A DNA stretch of 64,000 bases from an uncultured Acidimicrobiales bacterium (GTDB lineage: Bacteria > Actinomycetota > Acidimicrobiia > Acidimicrobiales > SHLQ01): assembly GCA_938041035.1 (NCBI GenBank), contig CALHYX010000026.1, forward strand, positions 1 through 64,000, read 5' to 3'. Both the position numbers and the translations under genes were made by a program. The notes beneath the pieces were generated by a model. That model did no database searches and had not been told where the DNA came from. It saw only the letters and a list, made by a program, of their open reading frames with translations. The number at the start of each line of letters is the position of its first letter. Within the stretch, counting starts at the first letter, position 1. Positions 51,902 through 57,015 of this stretch are shown one piece after another.

Positions 51902-53143
51902 TCAGCCGATGGCTTCGCGGAGATAGTCCGAGAAGCCCGCGGCCGACGGCGACGAATTCTGCCGGCGGTAGTCGAGCCAGTGGCGAACCGCCTCGGCTCG
52001 CGTCACTGGCTGCATGCCGGGGTAGGTCCGGCCGACCGCGTCGTGAGCAAGCGTGGATGGGGTTCCGGTTCCCAGACGGCGAACGCCGAGCATCGATGCG
52101 AGCTTGTTCGCGAGTCGCGGATCATGGCCACCTCGAAGCGTCAGGGCAACGAGGGCGGCCTTGGTAACGCCGGCACCATTGACCGTGAGCGCTCGAATCG
52201 CTCGTCGCACCACCCAGTGGGTCCGGTCGATCTCGGCCCCTTGGAGCCACTCGCCGACCAACGACGCCGCCTGCTGCATCGGCCAGTCGAGTTCGGGTAG
52301 GGGTAGCACGACCTCGACCACGAATTCGGCCAACAGCTCCGGCCGCTCGGCGCCGTCGGAACCCGCGGCGGCCACCAACTTCGCCGTGACCGTCTCGGCC
52401 AGCTCGAGGCGGTGTCCGATGTGTTCGTACCGTTCCTCGGCTAGGCCGGTTCGGTACGCGAAGGCCTTCGCCGGCGACAACTCGATGGTGGGTAGCTCCT
52501 TGGCTCGGTTGGTGAGGATCGAGAGGCCGTTCTCCAAGCCGATGTCCGAGGCGCCGGGTCGCACCCACAAGGCCCGTCCGCCGTCGGCGGTTGTCTTGCC
52601 GACGCCGACGACCTCGTCGCCGCCTCGGAGGAGCAACATGGCACGATCGCCATCGAAGACGCGCACCCACCGGAGGTCGGGGTCGTCGGTGATGGCCCAT
52701 CGGTCGATCAGTCGATCGATCTCTTCGGCTGGGCGGTCGACGGCGCGCATCGTGCTGTCGCGATGGGCCTGGAGGCGCCCGGCCAGTTCGAGCGCGACAT
52801 CCTCGGCCGGGTGATCCTCCCGGGCGAAGCGGCGAAGGAGTTCGCCGTCGGCGAGGCGGCGCAGCACCGCTGGCTCATAGATCACCTTTGCTCGCCAGTT
52901 CGTCACATGACGGTGGTCGAGCACGGTGGTCACGAACCGGTTCGATCCCCGATGGCGGCCGACGACGGTGATCTGTTCGCCCCCCATTCCCCAGAAAGCG
53001 GAGTGGAAGTGCACTTTTGCACCGGGGCGGAGCTTCTTCGTGCCCGCCCGAACCTCGCCGGAGGCCCCGACCAGGCGCTCCTCGACGACATTGCCCACCA
53101 CACCCCAGTGCGGTGCAGGGGGTTCGTCTTCGGCGTCGCTCAT
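51902..53143 (-). CDS. Conserved hypothetical protein
   Basis: A 413-aa cytoplasmic-looking protein that I do not assign to a function. The N-terminal ~90 residues form a compact basic domain (HWGVVGNVVEERLVG, AGTKKLRPGAKVHFHSAFWG, ITVVGRHRGSNRFVTTVLDHR) reminiscent of actinobacterial proteins of unknown role. The middle has an Asp/Val-rich domain (WVRVFDGDRAMLLLRGGDEVVGV), and the rest is helical. A TACCGT 6 nt before the ATG supports this start over longer frames that run into the tRNA gene. Confidence 0.75.
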   Translation of the reverse strand: MSDAEDEPPAPHWGVVGNVVEERLVGASGEVRAGTKKLRPGAKVHFHSAFWGMGGEQITVVGRHRGSNRFVTTVLDHRHVTNWRAKVIYEPAVLRRLADGELLRRFAREDHPAEDVALELAGRLQAHRDSTMRAVDRPAEEIDRLIDRWAITDDPDLRWVRVFDGDRAMLLLRGGDEVVGVGKTTADGGRALWVRPGASDIGLENGLSILTNRAKELPTIELSPAKAFAYRTGLAEERYEHIGHRLELAETVTAKLVAAAGSDGAERPELLAEFVVEVVLPLPELDWPMQQAASLVGEWLQGAEIDRTHWVVRRAIRALTVNGAGVTKAALVALTLRGGHDPRLANKLASMLGVRRLGTGTPSTLAHDAVGRTYPGMQPVTRAEAVRHWLDYRRQNSSPSAAGFSDYLREAIG

Positions 53144-53149
53144 CTCCCC

Positions 53150-53155
53150 ACGGTA
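53150..53155 (-). promoter_or_regulatory. -10 element of the 51902-53143 gene
   Basis: TACCGT on the minus strand, 6 nt before the ATG; leaderless pattern. Confidence 0.5.
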
Positions 53156-53223
53156 GGCGGACGAGCTCCTCGGTGATCGGCGGAAAACGACGAAACCCCG
53201 CTCCGAGAGCGGGGTTCGGTACG

Positions 53224-53296
53224 TGGAGCTAAGGAGAATTGAACTCCTGACCTCTTCCATGCCATGGAAGCGCTCTACCAACTGAGCTATAGCCCC
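53224..53296 (-). tRNA. tRNA-Ala (anticodon GGC)
   Basis: Complete cloverleaf on the minus strand: acceptor GGGGCTA/TAGCTCC with the alanine-specific G3-U70 pair, anticodon stem CTTCC/GGAAG, loop ATGGCAT (anticodon GGC at 53261-53263), T-arm AGGAG/CTCCT. CCA is not encoded. It lies between the unknown gene and the AhpD-like gene. Confidence 0.97.
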
Positions 53297-53355
53297 GAGA
53301 TTGCTCCGTAGACGCTACCAGCGCCGCGCTCGGATCAACACCTGTTTTTCTTCGC

Positions 53356-53371
53356 TGCGGCCGAAGCCGCA
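53356..53371 (-). terminator. Hairpin with UUCG loop after the AhpD-like gene
   Basis: TGCGGC-TTCG-GCCGCA on the minus strand, 14 nt past the stop of the AhpD-like gene and upstream of tRNA-Ala. A stable tetraloop hairpin, but followed by purines rather than U residues, so only a weak terminator candidate. Confidence 0.35.
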
Positions 53372-53385
53372 CGGCGCCGGTCGCG

Positions 53386-54426
53386 TCAACCCGTTTGCCC
53401 GGTCAGGCGCTTCGACGTGAATCCCTCGATGCCGAGGTCGGCGCGCAGGTCGTTGGACATAGCCACACTTCGCTCGTCGAGCGGGGTTCCGGTCGCATCG
53501 GCGATACGGGTCATCATGAAGAAGTTGGCGGCGACCGCGGCCGCGTCGACCATGGCCTCGGGTCCAAGTGCGTTGGTCAGGCGAGCTCGAGCGGTCGCCG
53601 CCTCGTCGTCGCCGGCGATGATCGCGTCGACGAACGCGATGAGTTCGGCTCCGTGGGGGACTCCGGCGCCGTCGGCTAGGCGGGCCGGGTCGATTTCACC
53701 GTCGGTCTCCATGCCGCTCAGACCGAGCAGCAGCGCATGGGACGTCGTTCAATAGAAACACTCGTTCACGATGGAGGTGTGGGTGGCGACCAACTCGATC
53801 TGTCGTCGGTCGAGCGTTCCCCGGTCCCAGTTCAGGTCGCCGACGAGGGCGGTTGGGGGGACGTACTGCGCTTCGAGCAGCGTCATCTGGGTCGCCCGGT
53901 CGGACGGGACGGCGCTCAACGCTCGCATCACCTGTGGTCCGCCACCCGTGGTCGGTACCCAGTGCGACGACACGGTTAGGTCGTCACCGCGTTCGCCGGT
54001 CGGTTCACCGGCGCCGCCCGCCGGCAACGGGATGGGTTCGAGAGCCAGAAAGTGCGCGAGTCGATCGATGCCGTTCATCATGGCGGCGATCGCGACCAGT
54101 TCGACGTAGTGCTCCGGCGATGTCAGGCCGGCGACGATTTCGTCGTACCAGTCGCGGGTAAGGGTTCCCGGATGGTTGGTGATGCGCCACACTGCATCGA
54201 TGGCGGCTGCCTCCAGCGGGTGATCGGGGGCAACCATGCCATCGGTCGACGACGGGGTTTGCCACGGCGGGAGATCGGGGCGCTCCATCGCCCGCCGCAC
54301 CTCGGCCGCGATGGCGACGCGCTCCGGCGCCGTCCACGACGCGCCTGGGCGACCGACGGCATCGATCACCTCGCGGTGAGCGTCGGTGAGATCGTCACGA
54401 AGACCGGCATCGAGAATCGTCCCCAT
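53386..54426 (-). CDS. AhpD/CMD-like redox protein, candidate selenoprotein (in-frame TGA read as Sec)
   Basis: An alkylhydroperoxidase D/carboxymuconolactone decarboxylase-like protein of 346 residues if the TGA at 53749-53751 is read through. Residues 1-225 end in [13 protein letters not shown]; the same frame continues after the TGA with [12 protein letters not shown] and 108 more codons from the next ATG. The family redox motif is CxxC(x3)H; here it reads C-F-Y-TGA-T-T-S-H, so the stop replaces exactly the second cysteine. A SECIS-like hairpin follows. ATG 54426 has a -10-like TAGCGT 6 nt upstream. AhpD-like and CMD-domain selenoproteins are known from marine metagenomes. The alternative is a nonsense-mutated pseudogene. 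Confidence 0.82.
53712..53732 (-). promoter_or_regulatory. Candidate bacterial SECIS element
   Basis: On the minus-strand RNA, UGCUGCUC pairs with GAGCGGCA (8 bp, one G-U) around a five-base GGUCU loop. The stem begins 16 nt and the loop 24 nt after the in-frame UGA. Bacterial SECIS elements lie just downstream of UGA and have G residues at the start of the apical loop. As I recall, the E. coli fdhF element also presents GGUCU. Within coding sequence, so chance is not excluded. Confidence 0.72.
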
Positions 54427-54432
54427 GGGTCG

Positions 54433-54438
54433 ACGCTA
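54433..54438 (-). promoter_or_regulatory. -10 element of the AhpD-like gene
   Basis: TAGCGT on the minus strand, 6 nt before the ATG at 54426. An intact start signal argues against a dead gene. Confidence 0.5.
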
Positions 54439-54518
54439 GACCGGTTCCGCCCGCCCTGTCCCGTCTCCGTCGAGCGTTTCTGCGGCACAAAAGCCGCGGC
54501 GCGCTGGGGCGGGGTCGT

Positions 54519-54524
54519 TACCCT
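54519..54524 (+). promoter_or_regulatory. -10 element of leuS
   Basis: TACCCT, 7 nt before the leuS ATG; leaderless pattern. Confidence 0.55.
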
Positions 54525-54531
54525 TGCGCCC

Positions 54532-57015
<2,484 letters not shown>

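Follow-up and report, generated by a model that had tools for sequence, protein, structure and literature searches.

An in-frame UGA codon in an AhpD-related gene from an uncultured Acidimicrobiales bacterium probably encodes selenocysteine at the second active-site position

Among described systems, the one closest to the gene considered here, which lies on the minus strand at 53386-54426 of a 64,000-nucleotide stretch of an uncultured Acidimicrobiales genome (contig CALHYX010000026.1; hereafter the window), is the family curated in NCBIfam as NF041238 (AhpD_rel_CFYUT, ‘alkylhydroperoxidase-related (seleno)protein’). Its history can be followed through the available portions of several papers: the 2005 Sargasso Sea survey (PMC1088965) introduced hypothetical protein 1 with four sequences and a predicted selenocysteine insertion sequence (SECIS), PMC9312934 lists that protein with CxxU, where U is selenocysteine (Sec), and PMC13188914 gives NF041238 as ‘AhpD-related protein (hypothetical protein 1, Sargasso Sea metagenome)’, a CxxU selenoprotein family. 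PMC2398784 lists OS_HP1 with UxxC instead of CxxU, which could not be reconciled with the other listings. As to function, the portions available of PMC13188914, PMC9312934 and PMC1088965 go at most as far as a possible redox role. Two further systems bear comparison, the single-domain AhpD-like peroxidase-related proteins (TIGR01926; PDB 2prr, 3c1l and 6k40) and the sestrins. The accessible text of PMC4674687 places the redox site of human Sestrin2, Cys125, in the N-terminal half and also describes a Glu74/Cys86 pair with a spacing of 12 residues; that of PMC11429811 describes Cys-based bacterial fused AhpD dimers, and a GATOR2-binding acidic hinge in the C-terminal half of sestrins.

Our analysis leads us to conclude, with a probability of roughly 95%, that the window gene encodes an NF041238 AhpD-related protein whose second active-site position is encoded by a UGA read as Sec, giving a CxxU pair that is likely redox-active. 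The profile match scores 317.1 bits against a whole-protein cut-off of 175 bits and runs from residue 10 to 338 (profile positions 2-357), straight across the TGA; the sole Pfam match is a CMD piece at residues 193-231, and the two sides of the TGA thus belong to one family, as an earlier note on this DNA had supposed. The gene, present in one copy in its genome, shares with the family the CFYU motif whose last position is UGA or Cys (here C223-F-Y-TGA) and the UGA at the same place; nothing sets it apart from the family, and it is without the N-half CxxC found in 78 of 80 relatives outside its class. That note had called the gene a probable new selenoprotein. An AhpD-type gene with TGA at the second active-site position and probable Sec stands, but ‘new’ does not: because the family is curated as NF041238, listed as a CxxU family (PMC13188914) and traceable to PMC1088965, as far as the available parts of both papers go, the gene is, on sequence grounds, a further example of a catalogued selenoprotein family and not a new kind.

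The frame starts with ATG at 54426 and runs for 225 codons to ...VNECFY, is interrupted by TGA at 53751-53749, then resumes without a shift for another 120 codons up to the terminal TGA at 53388-53386, so that the gene comprises 346 codons including the inner TGA, plus the final stop. A listing of open reading frames under table 11 splits it into a 225-residue frame and a 108-residue frame from an internal ATG. Coordinates, frame and motif are all as first described, down to the position of the TGA within the AhpD motif (C-F-Y-TGA-T-T-S-H), and the -10-like element proposed with them can be seen in the letters. The features are as follows.

53386..54426 (-): whole gene, 346 residues with UGA as Sec (translation; NF041238 profile match)
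53749..53751 (-): in-frame UGA, predicted Sec226 (translation; TGA in 110/110 loci)
53737..53760 (-): active-site motif C223-F-Y-U226-T-T-S-H230 (translation; alignment A3)
53794..53796 (-): Glu211, predicted proton-relay residue, 12 before C223 (invariant in A3; spacing as Glu74/Cys86 in the accessible text of PMC4674687)
53713..53731 (-): predicted SECIS hairpin, bases 21-39 counted from the U of UGA (loop 53720-53724 GGUCU, core CUC/GAG)
54034..54426 (-): N-terminal half, predicted AhpD-like fold without a Cys pair of its own
53437..53973 (-): C-terminal half, predicted AhpD-like domain bearing the CxxU site
54433..54438 (-): TAGCGT, -10-like, 6 nucleotides 5' of the ATG; possible leaderless start (sequence only)

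Across alignment A3 (32 rows), C223, column 226 and H230 are unchanged, as is Glu211, and position 225 is Phe instead of Tyr in five rows. In the predicted model this CxxC(U)x3H site sits in an AhpD-type helical fold, as in the AhpD/CMD superfamily.

We read 110 loci, 30 of the window's class (window included) and 80 outside it, the latter being the best 80 of 437 relatives from an alignment search of named genome contigs and titled Deltaproteobacteria, Gammaproteobacteria, Alphaproteobacteria, Myxococcota and others. The same codon is TGA in all 110 (30/30 within the class; outside it, 77 by pattern and three by reading). The frame 3' of the TGA stays open for 114-170 codons to the next stop or the contig end in all 77 outside loci measured. 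Within the class, where 29 relatives were available, the protein after the TGA shows fewer nonsynonymous than synonymous substitutions (dN < dS) in five of five comparisons, in all of which dS is high; for these five relatives the observed proportions downstream (pN 0.28-0.39, pS 0.48-0.71; dS again high) are much like those upstream. NF041238 exceeds its cut-off in 74 of 395 genomes of the class; 73 of these matches contain a single TGA, and that of G247 contains none. Among 296 sampled genomes of the phylum it does so in four, all of the window's class. In protein sets, 118 of 119 homologues (the best 120 of 522, the window's own excluded) end directly after C-F-Y/F. Many sets of predicted proteins truncate the chain at the TGA, so that half of the active site is missing, although NCBI names some of the relatives that end there ‘(seleno)protein’.

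Two Cys forms were met, P0101 (CFYC) and G247 (TGC at the column, with CTG as the +8 Leu codon), a number that may be an under-count since the query rows of the outside search were cut at the TGA. The earlier note had looked to Cys in homologues as a sign of Sec, and Cys indeed fills the column in both, though the genome of G247 has selA. By reading, the G247 Cys form has no CTC-NGT-GAG at the place of the hairpin core.

The genome itself (4.89 Mb in 113 contigs, 94.6% complete) carries the whole set of Sec genes that had been named as worth looking for, each over its cut-off: tRNA-Sec with anticodon TCA (65.3 bits, cut-off 47; also found by ARAGORN), selB (267.7 against 242.25) adjoining selA (388.6 against 267.9) on one contig (C56), and selD (357.7 against 125). 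Across the class, selA (E ≤ 0.001) occurs in 67 of 73 TGA-form genomes, two of the 67 with a weak piece only, versus 209 of 322 others, a group that includes G247 and genomes with NF041238 matches under the cut-off. With the comparison confined to good-quality genomes (completeness ≥ 90% and contamination ≤ 5%, from rounded table values), the counts are 45 of 46 versus 135 of 222 (Fisher p 3.8e-8). Of ten outside genomes tested from the 80 loci, eight have selA, seven over the cut-off.

A short predicted hairpin follows the UGA, with a conserved loop G as in selenoprotein hairpins. In the class, bases 25-27/33-35 are CUC/GAG in 30/30 members, loop G29 is present in 30/30 and U30 in 27. Over 109 sequences the core combinations are CTC/GAG (101), CTT/AAG (5), CTC/GGG (2) and CGC/GAG (1); the five CTT cases all have AAG, so each CTT change is matched by A at base 33, and the core is kept or compensated in 106 of 109, with loop G29 kept in 108. 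Standard pairs fill 84.9% of cells at the proposed position versus 27-46% in slid versions, and no shuffle out of 500 attained the covariation score, the percentage paired or the number of cells changed on both sides. At +8, Leu is encoded by CTC in 103 of 109 sequences, compared with 951 of 3,213 Leu codons (29.6%) in the rest of these frames. Its constant position and its compensated changes in loci of several phyla make this hairpin a clean candidate SECIS for reporter work, the window's class included.

Several observations count against reading the UGA as Sec, or against the hairpin as its signal. The Fisher and shuffle tests ignore relatedness; selA was not found in six of the 73 TGA-form genomes (five of the six less than 90% complete) and two more have the weak piece only, and of the ten outside genomes two are without a selA hit and one has part of the gene only. 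The Cys-form genome G247 has selA, so its Cys is not explained by missing machinery. For the hairpin, 98 and 244 of 500 shuffles attain two of the five covariation measures, a +3 slide still scores 0.130 versus 0.161, the outer pairs are weak, being open in 41 and 63 of 107 cases, and locus L160 is without the loop G. For the 30 class sequences RNAalifold retains five pairs, none with a two-sided change; the window's 71-nucleotide stretch has a fold no stabler than that of shuffles, of which 38 of 200 do as well (z -0.86); and an Rfam search of 52500-55500 returned no SECIS.

What else could place a TGA here? Because it does interrupt the frame, it might be a nonsense mutation in a dying gene, from which a 225-residue stub or nothing would be made as the remainder decays, but this we regard as practically negligible in the face of a TGA shared by all 110 loci, an open downstream frame in every outside locus measured and dN < dS in every comparison. 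The earlier argument that a random nonsense mutation would not be expected at this codon thus holds up, and the relatives read, far from carrying the random stops that would have spoken for decay, share one TGA. The frame would be equally open if UGA were read as some other residue, such as Trp, through a code change or a suppressor; here the gene's own terminator is also UGA, the genome encodes tRNA-Sec with a TCA anticodon together with SelA, SelB and SelD, the two Cys forms have cysteine in that column and a hairpin follows the UGA, all of which make such a reading highly improbable. We also considered that the UGA might act as a selenium-dependent switch between a 225-residue protein (the N-half plus half of the motif) and the full selenoenzyme, the N-half having a function of its own, possibly a regulatory one, as in sestrins. 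We hold this to be unlikely, given that the cut would also remove most of the C-domain and that the best Foldseek match to a sestrin (E 0.74) is not significant.

If the UGA is read as Sec, SelB would bring Sec-tRNA to it by way of the hairpin, and a selenenylsulfide could link Cys223 and Sec226 as peroxide or disulfide substrates are turned over. Glu211 and His230, joined by Tyr225 where present, may serve as a proton relay of the kind reported for AhpD-type proteins. Under selenium shortage, translation would halt at residue 225 and leave a short product lacking both Sec and His. We consider peroxide or thiol redox chemistry by the CxxU pair likely. The gene neighbourhood offered no conserved neighbour that helped to assign a mechanism.

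The predicted models, of the full chain and of the N-half alone, suggest two AhpD-like halves fused in one chain. Single-domain AhpD-like proteins resemble the window's C-half in sequence and in the model, with a C-x-Y-C/U-x3-H site and a Glu 12 residues before the first Cys in both. They differ in that the listed PDB chains are shorter than 200 residues, whereas the window gene has a predicted extra AhpD-like half in front, and in that Sec replaces their second Cys; the TIGR01926 score, 36.4, falls under that model's cut-off of 81.8. With sestrins the gene shares the fused AhpD-like halves, as predicted, but not the redox Cys of the N-half, its site being at 223-226 in the C-half. No PDB sestrin appeared among sequence matches up to E 10. 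An N-half CxxC is present in the 78 outside relatives noted above (of L082-L161) versus none of the 30 class loci. In the parts of the literature that we covered, neither a sestrin-like layout of a Sec family nor this on/off N-half CxxC was found described. We tentatively raise the possibility, which we judge distinctly less probable than its converse, that bacteria possess, in NF041238, a selenium-based equivalent of the sestrin fold: in most members from other classes than the window's, two redox centres (CxxC in the N-half, CxxU in the C-half) would pass electrons from one to the other, and the window's branch would have dropped the first, a mirror of sestrins dropping the second. Were this two-centre reading true, it would provide a bacterial system for how fused AhpD domains in the sestrin layout divided labour.

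Other genes of these genomes also carry in-frame TGAs. In the window's own genome, selD (C107:4695-5612; L018/L053) has one at GAG-U-GCK, and selenophosphate synthetase is itself likely a selenoprotein. A formate dehydrogenase alpha-like gene (L074, C98:14317-15594) has one in SCNRT-U-HAPSVVGLA, at about residue 160; the 426-residue piece reaches 515.9 bits against TIGR01591, short of the whole-protein cut-off of 666.25, and the gene is likely a further selenoprotein of this genome. In many genomes of genus g89 (e.g. G005, G053 and G077), shorter frames of about 190 codons give weak NF041238 matches with one in-frame TGA; these may represent a second AhpD-like selenoprotein family, widespread among the class's small genomes. 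Two weak AhpD-like matches, G337:C613:16238-16810 and G371:C45:1043-1594, have two in-frame TGAs each, which may reflect UxxU or an assembly error. Beside the gene in the window lie leuS and tRNA-Ala(GGC) (53223-57015); these occur in another order in G215 (L055 1690-5953), a genome of a different family in the same class, and are absent as neighbours in G368 of the window's family.
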